From positions 1-26,112 of IMG/VR virus record IMGVR_UViG_3300029266_000155: a stretch of DNA of 26,112 bases. One strand, given 5' to 3'. This document shows positions 3,152 to 16,483 of the stretch, piece after piece; the stretch's first letter is position 1, and the number at the start of each line of letters is the position of its first letter. The position numbers were made by a program, and so were the translations under genes. Source of the DNA: a virus. A model generated the notes under the pieces. That model worked only from the letters and a program-made list of their open reading frames with translations. It was not told where the DNA came from and did not search any database.

Positions 3152-3544
3152 TTAAACGCTCAACGTCAATTCAAGTTCAACACTAGAATAATCAACATCA
3201 ACGCAAACATCGCCGCCGTTAATCAATTCCTTTAAGATTTCGCGGACGCTCTCAATGTGGGGCACCGCATCCCTAGGGTTAAACTCTTCGAGCTTTAAAT
3301 CAATACGCGCATCAATTAACTGTTGCAGATCGTTTAAAAGTAATCGGCCCGCGCTGGCATCCGCCAACGCATTGTCGTGCAATACTTGGGCGTTTTGCTG
3401 TTCAAGTATTATGCAATGGTCGCGCAAGTTTTTAAGGTCCGCCGCGGCGGCTCTAATGTCTTTTCCAGTCTCTTCTAATCCGTCGGCCAAATACTGGGCC
3501 GCTAAACCGTCGAGGTGATCTATGTCTGTTTTAATATCTATCAT
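3152..3544 (-). CDS. Hypothetical protein, mostly helical, possible coiled coil (130 aa)
   Basis: The ATG at 3544 is preceded by TACGGAGAATTAACC, the typical ribosome binding site of this phage, and by promoter P2. Residues 10-90 are dominated by Ala, Leu, Asp, Glu and Gln in a helical pattern (for example DLKNLRDHCIILEQQNAQVL), consistent with a coiled coil. The C-terminus (VCVDVDYSSVELELTLSV) looks like beta strand. It is acidic and has no membrane segment. Function unknown. Confidence 0.75.
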   Translation of the reverse strand: MIDIKTDIDHLDGLAAQYLADGLEETGKDIRAAAADLKNLRDHCIILEQQNAQVLHDNALADASAGRLLLNDLQQLIDARIDLKLEEFNPRDAVPHIESVREILKELINGGDVCVDVDYSSVELELTLSV

Positions 3545-3588
3545 GGTTAATTCTCCGTAGGTTAAAGTTAAACGGCTTGCCCGCCGTC

Positions 3589-3626
3589 GTATGGGATTAT
3601 ATAAGATAACTTTATAAAAAGTAAAG
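3589..3626 (-). promoter_or_regulatory. Promoter P2 (copy 2 of the 38-bp promoter repeat)
   Basis: -35 TTTACT (3625-3620) and -10 TATAAT (3601-3596) with an 18-base spacer. It differs from P1 at one position of 38. Only one half (TATGGG on the plus strand) of the P1 inverted repeat is conserved downstream, so the two promoters may be regulated differently. Confidence 0.8.
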
Positions 3627-3679: not shown

Positions 3680-4870
3680 TTATGCGGTGACTTTATCCAG
3701 CAGTGCGCCCGCCTTTTTTTCAACCTCTATTCGCGCATCTTGGTGCGGTATGTCTCGCGCTATTGCGGTGATTGCCTGCGCCGCATCCCAAACCGTTTCG
3801 ACCGGTCGGCCCTCTTCTGACATATGACGGGCGGCGGCGGCTTTCGCCATGCGTCCAGATAGTCCGGCGCGTTTGCTTAAAAACTCTAAACGGCTTTCGT
3901 CATCCGTCGCAATCTTGGCAGCTTTCGCGGCCATAACGCCCTCGACAAATGTAGAGGTGGCACCGTTGGCGAAGCTTTCCAAAGCTGGGCGGGCTTCCAT
4001 AGCGAAACGATCCGGCGCAAACTTAGTGTGTCGAATCTTAATCTCGTGAAAGTTCTCGACGCCCCATAGGTTTCGATTCATGCAAACGCCGCGGAGGTAC
4101 ATCGCCGCAATGCCTGCCGTTTTGCTGCCGGTCTCACTGTTCCAAGCATAGAACCCGCGGAACATTAGATCGGGTTCACCGTTGGCAAGCTTGCCCACTT
4201 CGATAGGGTTTCGATCATCCACAAGGAAAACAAACACGTCGCGATCACTTGCAAACAATGTTGTCGTGTCATTAGTAACGGGTATTTCTGGGTCATATAC
4301 CGCCATACCGTCGCGGCTCCCCGTCATCATGCCCGGCACTTTCCAACGTCCGCCGGATTGATCCACCAATTTTTTGATAGGGTCTAATATTTCCCAGTCA
4401 TAAATACGCCCATAGTCTGGACCCGTCGCGGCTCTAAGTTCGCCGCCGTCGCTTTGATGGCCGAATACCTTTATTAATTCTTTGCCCCGGTTATATTTCA
4501 AACCCCACTGAATACAATCCGCGGCCAATGGTGCGGGCAAGTCTTTAAGATACCCGGCAGGCGCTCCCGCAAGCTGGGACAATTGTCCGAAGCTCCAATT
4601 AGTTGGGCTGTTCACGTGTTCCCGGTGATTGTCGTCGGCGTACTCAATCCGCAAATCTCCGCGGCTTGGGTTCGCTTCGTCAAATTCTCCAACAATCTGG
4701 ATTTTGTGAGTGTCAACCGTGCGGCTAGTCATAAGGGCGGCGTCGTTCTTTTTGTATGCCAACATACTGTCGAGCGATAAGAATTTTTGATCGTCCGGGC
4801 GGTTAAACCACTGTGAAGATACTGCGGAATTGCCAATCCCGTGCGCAAAAGCGTTAGTTTGATAAGTCAT
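3680..4870 (-). CDS. DUF932 / phage-plasmid-like protein (TIGR03299 type)
   Basis: The 396-residue product starts at the ATG at 4870, eight bases after GGAG in TACGGAGAACATAAT; an in-frame ATG at 4921 has no such site. It resembles the DUF932 family found on phages and plasmids: an N-terminal half with 'WSFGQLSQLAGAPAGYL' and a C-terminal half with 'FRGFYAWNSETGSKTAGIAAMYLRGVCMNRNLWG' and 'RHT'. Family function is not established; it tends to lie among replication and recombination accessory genes. A possible promoter (TTGCTT at 4950-4945, TATTAT at 4925-4920) lies upstream, with a loose 19-base spacer. A terminator follows the gene. Confidence 0.85.
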   Translation of the reverse strand: MTYQTNAFAHGIGNSAVSSQWFNRPDDQKFLSLDSMLAYKKNDAALMTSRTVDTHKIQIVGEFDEANPSRGDLRIEYADDNHREHVNSPTNWSFGQLSQLAGAPAGYLKDLPAPLAADCIQWGLKYNRGKELIKVFGHQSDGGELRAATGPDYGRIYDWEILDPIKKLVDQSGGRWKVPGMMTGSRDGMAVYDPEIPVTNDTTTLFASDRDVFVFLVDDRNPIEVGKLANGEPDLMFRGFYAWNSETGSKTAGIAAMYLRGVCMNRNLWGVENFHEIKIRHTKFAPDRFAMEARPALESFANGATSTFVEGVMAAKAAKIATDDESRLEFLSKRAGLSGRMAKAAAARHMSEEGRPVETVWDAAQAITAIARDIPHQDARIEVEKKAGALLDKVTA

Positions 4871-4967
4871 ATTATGTTCTCCGTAAAAACAAAAAGGGGG
4901 CGGAATTGCTCCCTCCCCCATAATATCGCAGATAATCCTATACTAAGCAAGCTAATATTTTAAAAAG

Positions 4968-5714: not shown

Positions 5715-5757
5715 GGTTGCCCCCATAGTTGTATAAGATTTATCCCATACTATGCCC

Positions 5758-5785
5758 ATAAAAAAACCCGGAGTCAACCGGGTTT
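5758..5785 (-). terminator. Rho-independent terminator after the 5800-6139 genes
   Basis: AAACCCGG/CCGGGTTT stem (5785-5778 and 5771-5764), 6-base loop and a T tract on the minus strand. Confidence 0.85.
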
Positions 5786-5929: not shown

Positions 5930-6139
5930 TTAACCCCAATCCTTTTGTCCGCCGTCCTCTTCGGCAGTTTTGAACCCCACACTATAAGAGGTTATTTCAG
6001 CGGCAGTCATGTCTTTAAGTTCGACACGTTCGCTGCCATGAGTAGCCCCTTTAAAAAAATGAGGGTCGTATTGTCTTCCGTACCAAAAATCAGCCCCGCC
6101 TCTATCGTGCGGCCCGCCATGTCGTGTTGAATGTGTCAT
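5930..6139 (-). CDS. Small conserved-type phage protein (69 aa)
   Basis: The ATG at 6139 has a good ribosome binding site (AACGGAGAAAACTAT). The sequence contains HDRGGADFWYGRQYDPHFF followed by MTAAEITSYSVGF. I recall similar 'DRG-AD-YYGR' short proteins in many phages and bacteria, with no known function. Aromatic, Gly and Arg residues dominate the first half; the second half is a short acidic helix. It heads a two-gene unit with the basic 42-residue protein and ends in a terminator. Confidence 0.75.
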   Translation of the reverse strand: MTHSTRHGGPHDRGGADFWYGRQYDPHFFKGATHGSERVELKDMTAAEITSYSVGFKTAEEDGGQKDWG

Positions 6140-6165
6140 ATAGTTTTCTCCGTTTATTTAGTTGA

Positions 6166-6645
6166 CTATAAGATACTATGCGATTTTGTGGGACATATCA
6201 AGCTAAAAATAACGTTCCAGTCTGCTTTGCCTTCAACATGGTGAACGGGGTCCACTTTCAAACCCGTCATCTTTAAATCAACTGCTTCCCCTCCGGGGTA
6301 CAGATACGTTTGCTCGGGGGCGTTTTTAGTTGGTTGTTTCCTAACCAGAACCCAGACACTCGCATGACCATGCGTTGTAAGCCAAGCCACCTGATGTGGT
6401 CTTAAATCCACAGCGTTACCTGCGGTCGCTTTTAGTTCTACAAAATGAAAGTTGCCTAGCTCATCACATAACACAACATCCGGTACGCCCGGCATTGCCC
6501 AAGTTTCTAATCTAGTGGCTTTAATGTTGCGTTGCGTTTTCGCCATCCCCGTCTTCATCTGCCTCCAAAAGTCGGCTTCTCGCTTTGTCGCGGTTCTGGG
6601 AATTGCTCTCTCCTTCGGGAGTAACGTCGATAGTGATCGGGGCAT
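6166..6645 (-). CDS. VRR-NUC-type nuclease (PD-(D/E)XK fold)
   Basis: The core PGVPDVVLC...FHFVELKA (residues about 52-73) shows the D...ExK catalytic pattern of VRR-NUC/Holliday-junction-resolvase-like nucleases, followed by 'LRPHQVAWLTTHG' and 'VWVLVRK' as in phage members. These usually begin with a helix like EADFWRQMK, found here at residues 23-31, so translation must begin upstream of it. The ATG at 6645 is the only ATG that includes it, although its Shine-Dalgarno (GGAG, 13 bases away) is poor; an ATT behind AAGGAG near 6604 is an alternative. The gene therefore overlaps the end of the small terminase gene by up to 125 bases in another frame. ATGs at 6558 and 6546 would give shorter products without the helix. 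Confidence 0.8.
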   Translation of the reverse strand: MPRSLSTLLPKERAIPRTATKREADFWRQMKTGMAKTQRNIKATRLETWAMPGVPDVVLCDELGNFHFVELKATAGNAVDLRPHQVAWLTTHGHASVWVLVRKQPTKNAPEQTYLYPGGEAVDLKMTGLKVDPVHHVEGKADWNVIFSLICPTKSHSIL

Positions 6646-7518: not shown

Positions 7519-7815
7519 TTATTCACCTTCAATAGAAACTCTTTTCATAGGCTTCGTTCTAAAGAACCCTTTGTAGTCCGGGTATTGGTGCATGAACAAT
7601 CGTGCGTACAAAGCTATGTAGTCGTTCGAGATTTTGTATTCATCCCCTGTGGTGACGATCATTGTCTCCCACCGGATGCGGTTTACAATTAACCATGCGG
7701 AAAGTTTTCGGTGCCCTTTCCGAATAGCTTGGAAGGTGAACTTTTTAAACATCACGTAGAACTCGGGGTTTTCTTTATGCCAAACCCACCAACGTTCTTT
7801 CAGGTCATCCGTCAT
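7519..7815 (-). CDS. Conserved-type hypothetical phage protein (98 aa)
   Basis: The ATG at 7815 overlaps the TGA of the upstream AlpA-like gene (ATGA), implying translational coupling; a slightly earlier TTG at 7827 is less likely. The protein is rich in aromatic and basic residues: FYVMFKKFTFQAIRKGHRKLSAWLIVNRIRWE, then YKISNDYIALYARLFMHQYPDY and GFFRTKP. I recall similar short phage proteins with this 'IRWE...ISN-Y--YYARLFM...FFRTR' pattern near regulatory genes, without a known function. It probably works with the coupled DNA-binding protein. Confidence 0.7.
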   Translation of the reverse strand: MTDDLKERWWVWHKENPEFYVMFKKFTFQAIRKGHRKLSAWLIVNRIRWETMIVTTGDEYKISNDYIALYARLFMHQYPDYKGFFRTKPMKRVSIEGE

Positions 7816-8168
7816 CCAAACAGCCAAACACCAAGTCCCGCCAACAAACCACCTACGGCAGCCATTAAAGGATACTTATGTTTCACGTGCCATGGTTCCC
7901 AGCCCAAGTCCCAATGGTCGTCCATCTCTTCAACCGGTGGGTTAATGATAATAACTTCCGCCTGACGTGCCTTCTTCATATTTTGTGCCAGCATAAAGTT
8001 AAGGACTACATCTTCATCCCAACGGTTAACGAGCTTTGGTCCGCGGCTCGCGGTTGTCGGAACTTTTATAGGCAGGGGAAATTCATGTGCCTTTATTTTT
8101 CGGTAAATAGTTGGGGCAGACATTCGTGCGATGACGCACACTTCTTCGAGCTTAATTAATTTTTTCAT
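7812..8168 (-). CDS. AlpA/MerR-type HTH protein with a C-terminal membrane segment
   Basis: Residues 1-60 show the AlpA-like winged-helix pattern: LIKLEEVCVIARMSAPTIYR, then KIKAHEFPLPIKV and RWDEDVVLNFML. Such proteins act as phage/island transcription regulators or excisionases. The last part, after a Trp-rich linker (DDHWDLGWEPWHVKHK), is YPLMAAVGGLLAGLGVWLFG, a hydrophobic stretch long enough to cross the membrane and placed at the very C-terminus. A DNA-binding domain with a tail anchor is unusual. The ATG at 8168 follows AACGGAGATCGCT. Its promoter region carries the perfect inverted repeat CCCATA-CAC-TATGGG, a plausible self-regulatory operator. Confidence 0.75.
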   Translation of the reverse strand: MKKLIKLEEVCVIARMSAPTIYRKIKAHEFPLPIKVPTTASRGPKLVNRWDEDVVLNFMLAQNMKKARQAEVIIINPPVEEMDDHWDLGWEPWHVKHKYPLMAAVGGLLAGLGVWLFG

Positions 8169-8193: not shown

Positions 8194-8228
8194 CCCATAG
8201 TGTATGGGATTTTATCTATAAAAGTCAA
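8194..8228 (-). promoter_or_regulatory. Promoter with operator for the AlpA-like gene
   Basis: On the minus strand TTGACT (8228-8223) and TACACT (8204-8199) are 18 bases apart. The inverted repeat CCCATA-CAC-TATGGG (8208-8194) covers the -10 element, the classic position for a repressor. The -35 overlaps the stop codon of the upstream gene. Confidence 0.6.
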
Positions 8229-8401
8229 CCACGCAGAATGCGTATCCAAGCTTTCTCTATCTCAAGGGATTGCTTTTGTCTGTCTTCTATGGTTAACGAT
8301 TCGTCTTTTGCAATTTTTACGAGGGTTACGTTAACCAGTTTGTTGATCCGATTAACGCACCAACTGTAGCTCATTTCATCTATTCGCTTCTCGGCTTCCA
8401 T
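8225..8401 (-). CDS. Small helical hypothetical protein (58 aa)
   Basis: The ATG at 8401 is preceded by a strong GGAGGT seven bases upstream, so I prefer it to the in-frame start at 8422. The product begins MEAEKRIDEMSYSWCVNRIN and ends SLEIEKAWIRILRG. It is charged and almost certainly alpha-helical. It overlaps the end of the upstream gene by 22 bases. No family recognised. Confidence 0.65.
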   Translation of the reverse strand: MEAEKRIDEMSYSWCVNRINKLVNVTLVKIAKDESLTIEDRQKQSLEIEKAWIRILRG

Positions 8402-8586
8402 GTGTCTACCTCCGCGTACCATTTGCCACCCTTACTTTCTTTCACCTGAACGTTAATCCATTCGTCGGTCTGGCCCGTGAGCCACGCTATAAGGTCTTCT
8501 CTTTTTATACTAAGAGCGCACTTAACGAAGTCAGGTGCTTTCTCGTTTGGTTTTTTAGCCATTAGGCCATCTACAAAATCTGCCAT
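8380..8586 (-). CDS. Small hypothetical protein (68 aa)
   Basis: The ATG at 8586 follows AGGAGAAAGATA. The longer frame to 8646 would cross a terminator. The product starts MADFVDGLMAKKPNEKAPDF and contains CALSIKREDLIAWLTGQTDEWINVQVKESKGGKWYAEVDTW. The last part reads like a short beta sheet (INVQVKESKGGKWYAEVDTW), similar in style to small phage proteins of unknown role. Translated from the same transcript as the overlapping downstream 58-residue protein. Confidence 0.7.
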   Translation of the reverse strand: MADFVDGLMAKKPNEKAPDFVKCALSIKREDLIAWLTGQTDEWINVQVKESKGGKWYAEVDTWKPRSE

Positions 8587-8603: not shown

Positions 8604-8639
8604 TAAAAACCCCCAGCCGGGGGCAACCAGACTGGGGGT
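8604..8639 (-). terminator. Rho-independent terminator between 8711 and 8586
   Basis: Minus-strand arms ACCCCCAG (8639-8632) and CTGGGGGT (8616-8609) pair around a 15-base loop that can fold further, and a T tract follows. It ends transcription from the 8711-9047 genes, or the short RNA proposed at 8604-8671. Confidence 0.75.
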
Positions 8640-8671
8640 GAGTCAACTACGGAGAACATGTTTCCATGCTC
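8604..8671 (-). ncRNA. Candidate small RNA carrying an anti-Shine-Dalgarno sequence
   Basis: A good promoter (8678-8707) and a terminator (8604-8639) flank about 68 bases without a gene on the minus strand. The predicted RNA would begin with a hairpin AGCATG-GAAA-CATGTT (GNRA loop), continue with CTCCGTAGTTGACTC and end in the terminator hairpin. ATGTTCTCCGTA within it (8659-8648) is exactly complementary over 12 bases to TACGGAGAACAT in the leader of the DUF932 gene. It is also complementary over at least seven bases to the ACGGAGA sites before 2851, 3544, 6139 and 8168. The alternative is that this is an inverted remnant of a phage gene leader, since the plus strand reads as a normal leader. 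Confidence 0.4.
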
Positions 8672-8677
8672 AAGGTT

Positions 8678-8707
8678 ATTATAAACACAACCGTATGCGA
8701 TAAGCAA
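8678..8707 (-). promoter_or_regulatory. Sigma70-like promoter with overlapping inverted repeat
   Basis: -35 TTGCTT (8707-8702) and perfect -10 TATAAT (8683-8678) with an 18-base spacer. TATGCGAT (8694-8701) and ATCGCATA (8714-8721) form a perfect 8-bp inverted repeat flanking the -35 box, a plausible operator. Confidence 0.65.
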
Positions 8708-8710
8708 TAG

Positions 8711-8899
8711 TTAATCGCATAGATCACTGGGAAATTCTCCTGCTGATATTGGATCGGTTATTGTTAGTAAACAACGCGAACACCTTCTAATAAGAACTTC
8801 ATCAGTTATCTCGACAACGCCTAATTGAGCTTCACACTTCGGACACTGGTTTCTTACCAGCCGCTTGTGTATTACGCCCTTCTCTACTATCTGCTTCAT
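8711..8899 (-). CDS. Small zinc-ribbon protein (62 aa)
   Basis: Two CxxC pairs, CPKC (residues 19-22) and CSRC (40-43), are separated by 17 residues with beta-like sequence (QLGVVEITDEVLIRR), the arrangement of a zinc ribbon. The first 18 residues are basic. Such small proteins often touch nucleic acid or RNA polymerase, but no target can be read here. It overlaps the upstream RHH gene by 68 bases in another frame. The ATG at 8899 is the only ATG before the zinc pairs; GGAG lies 13 bases upstream, which is rather far. Confidence 0.65.
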   Translation of the reverse strand: MKQIVEKGVIHKRLVRNQCPKCEAQLGVVEITDEVLIRRCSRCLLTITDPISAGEFPSDLCD

Positions 8900-16403: not shown

Positions 16404-16442
16404 CGTTTTTCTCCTTTCGTGGTTAAAGGCACCTTTCGGGCC

Positions 16443-16483
16443 TTGACAATTATGTATATTATCTTATACCATACAGAAGTCAA
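16443..16483. promoter_or_regulatory. Overlapping opposed promoters between replication and SNF2 genes
   Basis: Plus strand: TTGACA (16443-16448), 16 bases, TATACC (16465-16470), driving the SNF2 gene. Minus strand: TTGACT (16483-16478), 16 bases, TAATAT (about 16461-16456), driving the 16403 gene. Both -10 elements lie between the two -35 boxes, so polymerase on one excludes the other. The outer GACTT/TTGAC ends are themselves inverted. Confidence 0.65.

Follow-up and report, generated by a model that had tools for sequence, protein, structure and literature searches.

The window, that is, the whole stretch of DNA analysed in this work (a viral contig of 26,112 bases from IMG/VR), appears to carry the gene of a small phage RNA (sRNA) that would act in trans as a two-site antisense RNA, blocking the translation of those genes of the phage that are controlled by a common operator; we assign to this reading a probability of about 0.83. 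Since the RNA has changed in step with its targets in related phages, it is probably the phage's own brake on the matched genes. The anatomy of the gene, its conservation, the complementarities to distant leaders, their co-variation and the shared operator can all be read directly from the sequences. The features around the sRNA gene are the following:

8604-8671, minus strand: small RNA, about 68 nt
8654-8671, minus strand: 5' hairpin P1 (GAGCAUG-GAAA-CAUGUUC), with compensatory changes
8640-8656, minus strand: seed/linker UUCUCCGUAGUUGACUC, complementary to the target Shine-Dalgarno regions
8604-8639, minus strand: intrinsic terminator hairpin and U tract
8619-8628, minus strand: terminator loop GGUUGCCCCC, which is proposed to be a second pairing site (complement in leader loops; co-variation)
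8678-8707, minus strand: sigma70-type promoter TTGCTT-18-TATAAT, kept in relatives as TTGCTT..(TG)TATAAT
8694-8721, minus strand: operator, an inverted repeat (TATGCGAT-N12-ATCGCATA) that flanks the -35 of the sRNA promoter and overlaps it
8380-8586, minus strand: P0001, a gene of 68 aa behind the sRNA
7812-8168, minus strand: gene 8168, excisionase/transcriptional-regulator-like

The promoter (-35 TTGCTT at 8707-8702, an 18-bp spacer, -10 TATAAT at 8683-8678) and the terminator that the initial annotation had claimed are both present on the minus strand, the predicted transcript extending from G8671 (+1) to 8604. Only three of the six bases of the -35 fit the consensus, for which reason the promoter is absent from the list of an automatic promoter scan; this -35 is weak by itself, and the promoter owes its credibility to being conserved in relatives. 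The promoter is followed, in transcribed order, by GAGCAUGGAAACAUGUUC-UCCGUAGUUGACUC-ACCCCCAGUCUGGUUGCCCCCGGCUGGGGGUUUUU, and the 68-nt RNA is predicted to fold (-30.7 kcal/mol, z = -4.25, none of 200 shuffles being equally good) into a hairpin with a GAAA loop, an open stretch UCCGUAGUUGACUC and the terminator hairpin, in agreement with the GNRA-loop hairpin and the exposed stretch proposed earlier; the stretch exposed between the hairpins is UCUCCGUAGUUGACUC. The U tract is short in the window and longer in most relatives. The opposite reading, in which the plus-strand copy would be the leader of a plus-strand gene, was rejected, as no such gene was seen and the promoter, the hairpins, the terminator and the compensatory changes all lie on the minus strand.

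The conservation of this arrangement was analyzed starting from 80 P0001 loci in viral contigs. Nearly all the P0001 homologues are preceded by the same module of operator/-35, -10, hairpin, CUCCGUAG and terminator, of which about 39 distinct versions were collected from uncultured phage contigs; dozens of other contigs match a covariance model of the sRNA strongly, the window copy scoring 81.5 bits. The sequence of P1 varies freely while its pairing is kept, each of positions 1-7 showing three to five types of standard pair, and when the arms were exchanged among versions the pairing was never as good (0/2000). These pairs were counted by fold, anchored at the 3' end, because the MAFFT alignment, which covered 26 versions, misplaced the 5' arm of P1 between groups. 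Conversely, CUCCGUAG and the terminator loop UUGCCC (constant part UUGCC) are nearly invariant among the versions, a constancy which is expected of pairing sites, and these too are altered in some lineages (G033, G034, and G026). Two further pattern matches (the first one in L162 and that in L174) were discarded, since by their sequence they were judged to be target-leader antisense and not sRNAs. In another contig (L045, around 1100-1182), only the 3' half of the terminator is left of the sRNA before P0001 and unrelated sequence replaces the rest, so that this locus looks like a recombinant.

The leaders to which the RNA might pair are the following:

4870-4885, minus strand: leader of the DUF932 gene, UACGGAGAACAU (12 nt)
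6139-6167, minus strand: leader of gene 6139, AGUCAACUA and AACGGAGAA, a bipartite match
3544-3582, minus strand: leader of gene 3544, loop GGGCAA (3582-3577) and CUACGGAGAA
2851-2890, minus strand: leader of gene 2851, GGGGGCAA (2890-2883) and UUACGGAGAA
8168-8180, minus strand: leader of gene 8168, ACGGAGA
5715-5724, minus strand: possible target, GGGGGCAACC adjoining the gene 5714 (DUF7227) start, where CUACGGAGGGCAAACC stands in relatives

All the complementarities claimed by the initial annotation were recovered, namely 12 nt to the DUF932 leader (TACGGAGAACAT, 4885-4874), two adjacent matches of 9 and 8 nt to the 6139 leader (AGTCAACTA at 6167-6159 and ACGGAGAA) and, where at least seven bases had been proposed, 9 nt to the 2851 leader, 10 nt to the 3544 leader and ACGGAGA in that of 8168. 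The five genes 2851, 3544, DUF932, 6139, and 8168 have ACGGAGA as their Shine-Dalgarno sequence; this (U)ACGGAG type is unusual and complementary to the sRNA seed, the other genes of the window, including the one directly behind the sRNA, having AGGAG-type sequences. Indeed, ACGGAGA occurs eight times in the window versus 2.4 expected (none of 100 shuffles reaches eight), five of the copies being Shine-Dalgarno sites and one belonging to the sRNA itself. Linker matches of at least 8 nt involve four leaders versus 0.51 in shuffles that keep the anti-Shine-Dalgarno CUCC, seven out of 300 of which reach four. The homologous target leaders in relatives keep CUACGGAG.

Support also comes from the comparison of each sRNA with its own leaders. 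In the swap test, in which the pairing of own sRNAs with own leaders is compared with that of relatives' sRNAs (the relatives being statistically non-independent), none of 2000 permutations was equally good for the target families, versus 77 of 2000 for the control families; the figure for the gene 6139 leader family was 1/2000. Because choosing the targets by their pairing was to be avoided, they were also defined solely by an upstream operator TATGSGAT, which gave 66 leaders in 26 genomes. The duplexes of these leaders with their own sRNA reach -16.8 kcal/mol, versus -11.9 kcal/mol for 606 other leaders (P 2.5e-14), on energies that leave out folding inside each RNA and, for relatives' contigs, on genes called with a home-made caller; when the sRNAs were permuted among genomes, none of 3000 permutations was as good as the own ones. 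The leaders of several genomes (G010, G016, and G022) are no better than shuffled seeds, a short contig accounting for some of them, and terL bears the operator, yet lacks an sRNA target site.

A natural compensatory experiment is provided by the divergent genome G033, where the seed/linker, ACCUUUAGUUGGUUAGUGAG, and the leaders have been altered jointly. Five of its leaders, with a CUCACUAAC...AAAGG-type sequence, pair to the G033 seed over 15-20 bp, and each of them pairs better with its own sRNA than with all 24 other sRNAs; these five were selected as strong pairers, but the G033 leaders defined by the operator, an unbiased subset, follow the same trend. The targets of the window pair poorly with the G033 sRNA. 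Moreover, the loop of this sRNA is UUGCCU, and AGGCAA loops are found in two of the five strong-pairing leaders. Conservation and co-variation of seed and targets in relatives, which had been suggested as a check, have thus given a positive outcome (swap tests and G033), and they speak for the original proposal that one RNA might block the Shine-Dalgarno sequences of a whole gene set, the repression itself being what such pairing would be expected to cause.

Two elements were absent from the initial annotation, that is, the site in the terminator loop and the operator common to the sRNA and its targets. As for the former, it is likely that the terminator loop represents a second pairing site. 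The leaders of the 2851 and 3544 homologues start with a hairpin whose loop, GGGCAA, is the complement of UUGCCC in the sRNA, the complementary leader loops reading GGGGGCAA(CC)/GGGCAA; in G012 and G029 the sRNA loop CUUGCCCGC corresponds to GCGGGCAAGC in the leaders, and in G013 GGUUGCCCCC corresponds to GGGGGCAACC, over 10 nt each. In many leaders, the seed site and the loop site are in colinear order. When the sRNA model was run on contigs chosen only for an unrelated motif, 14 of the 16 weak matches were leader antisense, which implies that the model detects targets in reverse, with both sites colinear; the antisense of the 3544 leader in the window (3539-3600, plus strand) is also a weak match. 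By simple counts, the loop match stands clearly above shuffles in part of the genomes only (G003, G009, and G029), and the second site is therefore less certain than the seed.

Concerning the operator, TATGSGAT is present in eight copies in the window versus 1.18 expected, that is, upstream of 1734 (terL), 2851, 3544, 5714, 6139, and 8168, plus two in the sRNA promoter, and TATGCGATTAAGTGTTGCTTATCSCATA is conserved upstream of the sRNA in relatives. Across contigs, the operator and (A)CGGAG/AUGGAG sites co-occur with an odds ratio of 19 (P 4e-29, relatives being non-independent). Gene 8168, whose product matches phrog_66 (E 5.5e-6) and which has an operator half-site at 8203, is itself both operator-linked and sRNA-linked, and its protein is a candidate for binding the operator. 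In the leader of its homologue in another genome (gene 34487 of G014, contig L114), a sense copy of the seed, CACTCCGTAGTGC, precedes the Shine-Dalgarno sequence, which it could mask internally.

On this basis, the sRNA would be made from its own operator-controlled sigma70-type promoter and would end at its own terminator; the exposed CUCCGUAG linker would pair with the ACGGAG Shine-Dalgarno region of several phage mRNAs and, on many targets, the terminator loop UUGCCC might also pair, as an anchor, with the GGGCAA loop of the hairpin in the 5' leader. This pairing should keep ribosomes off and lower the translation of the genes with the common operator. As one operator controls both the sRNA and its targets, the RNA might either shape a pulse of the target genes or hold them at a low level. 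From the comparative data we infer that the RNA is transcribed, that it pairs in the cell and that it represses its targets, and any timing or involvement of a chaperone (e.g. Hfq) is likewise inferred.

It might be argued that the sRNA acts mainly on host mRNAs, or that the phage leaders are titrating sponges that are not repressed. Sponge leaders are known in bacteria, and the pairing comparisons reported here concern phage leaders only; however, the pairing covers the Shine-Dalgarno sequences of several phage genes that share the operator of the sRNA, and a sponge site has no need to coincide with a Shine-Dalgarno sequence, which makes this idea improbable in our opinion. Slightly less probable still is that the RNA serves chiefly as a 5' leader for P0001, its terminator being an attenuator and the complementarity to other leaders a secondary matter. 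In most contigs the sRNA does immediately precede a P0001 homologue, but the linkage is not obligate: six contigs (G044-G049) have lost P0001 and kept the sRNA, and L036 has a further coding stretch between sRNA and P0001. The sRNA persists where P0001 is lost and is thus more than its leader; besides, attenuation predicts no co-variation with distant leaders, and we rejected it. Finally, that an ordinary promoter and terminator enclose a CUCC matching Shine-Dalgarno sites by chance is hardly credible and was discarded, because, although any CUCC fits a Shine-Dalgarno sequence and single short matches are cheap, the leader matches exceed shuffles preserving the CUCC core, and the compensatory changes in P1, the swap tests, G033 and the second site are not expected by chance.

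P0001 itself matched no Pfam or PHROG family and had no match in named phages, and its AlphaFold model has a pLDDT of 58, too low for a structure search; its longer homologues (L071, L079, and L080) end in DDIPF/DVPF, a tail typical of single-strand DNA-binding proteins.

An antisense RNA of the phage acting on the phage's own leaders can be compared with several known systems. In P1 and P7, a phage mRNA is kept from being translated when short exposed stretches of the small phage RNA c4 pair around the ribosome binding site of that mRNA (PMC12197685). The RNA described here, as predicted from its sequence, is likewise a small phage RNA whose exposed stretches face ribosome binding sites, but c4 has one target, the antirepressor operon, with which it shares a common transcript, whereas the present RNA, with a promoter and a terminator to itself, has many targets, which lie kilobases away. 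It belongs neither to the c4 family nor to any other family in Rfam 15, which gave no match above the gathering threshold for the window or its relatives, and nothing, c4-like or otherwise, at E up to 10. PreS of lambda and VpdS of VP882 are separate phage sRNA genes acting in trans (PMC12197685), as we predict for this one; PreS targets the host dnaN and VpdS changes phage and host mRNA levels through Hfq, whereas here the evident targets form a co-regulated group of leaders of the phage itself. P22 sar and lambda OOP are also small phage RNAs that dampen the translation of phage regulators (PMC12197685), the effect proposed here for phage genes, but they act on the gene that they overlap or adjoin and not kilobases away. 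A resemblance in form is also seen with the enterobacterial trans-encoded sRNAs that block Shine-Dalgarno sequences, which share the 5' hairpin, the single-stranded seed, the intrinsic terminator and the multiple targets; like them, this is an independent gene having a promoter and an intrinsic terminator of its own; it persists in contigs that lack the downstream gene and, by prediction and co-variation, it would pair imperfectly with several distant ribosome binding sites. Unlike in them, the terminator loop is here an apparent second site that would meet the hairpin loops of the targets.

A search, at blastn sensitivity, of the collections of named phages and plasmids gave only chance matches to the sRNA, and two matches of its pattern in bacterial genomes were also judged to be chance (Pseudonocardia, 16 bits; Paenibacillus, nothing with the model). 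According to the DNA polymerase, the nearest named phages are Pelagibacter HTVC027P and HTVC023P, together with DSL-LC04 and 023Pt_psg01, all of them distant.

To our knowledge, few phage sRNAs with target sets in their own phage are known, most of them from a small number of model temperate phages. In the present case, the comparison of sequences alone has yielded the sRNA, its target set, a second pairing site and the control of its promoter; this suggests that uncultured phages may commonly use antisense control on sets of their genes, and that the co-variation of seeds and targets is a way to find it. More tentatively, and with a probability that we consider low, one gene set might be governed by a two-layer circuit, consisting of a DNA-binding regulator and a two-site antisense RNA whose terminator loop would make kissing contacts with a standard 5' hairpin on each target, in which the RNA could serve immunity or maintenance in an episomal phage. 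The latter role is conceivable because parS adjoins terL and no integrase or ParB was recognised (neither ParB_N nor a tyrosine integrase was found in ten contigs). The parS tandem, upstream of terL, consists of the perfect chromosomal consensus TGTTTCACGTGAAACA and the variant TGTTCCACGTGGAACA (1772-1787 and 1795-1810), versus 0.02 expected; it lies in the same place in relatives and occurs in 44 viral contigs. It is possible that the phage uses the ParB of its host at these sites.

Two other non-coding elements of the window are worth mentioning. Upstream of gene 16403 (16404-16450), the leader CAAGGCCCGAAAGGTGCCTTTAACCACGAAAGGAG is almost unchanged in every relative and may fold CCUUU against the Shine-Dalgarno sequence AAAGG, possibly representing a cis-regulatory RNA. 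Upstream of gene 5714, a terminator (5764-5785) has a conserved loop (CCCGGTTGACTCCGGG, similar in relatives) that resembles GUUGACUC of the linker.
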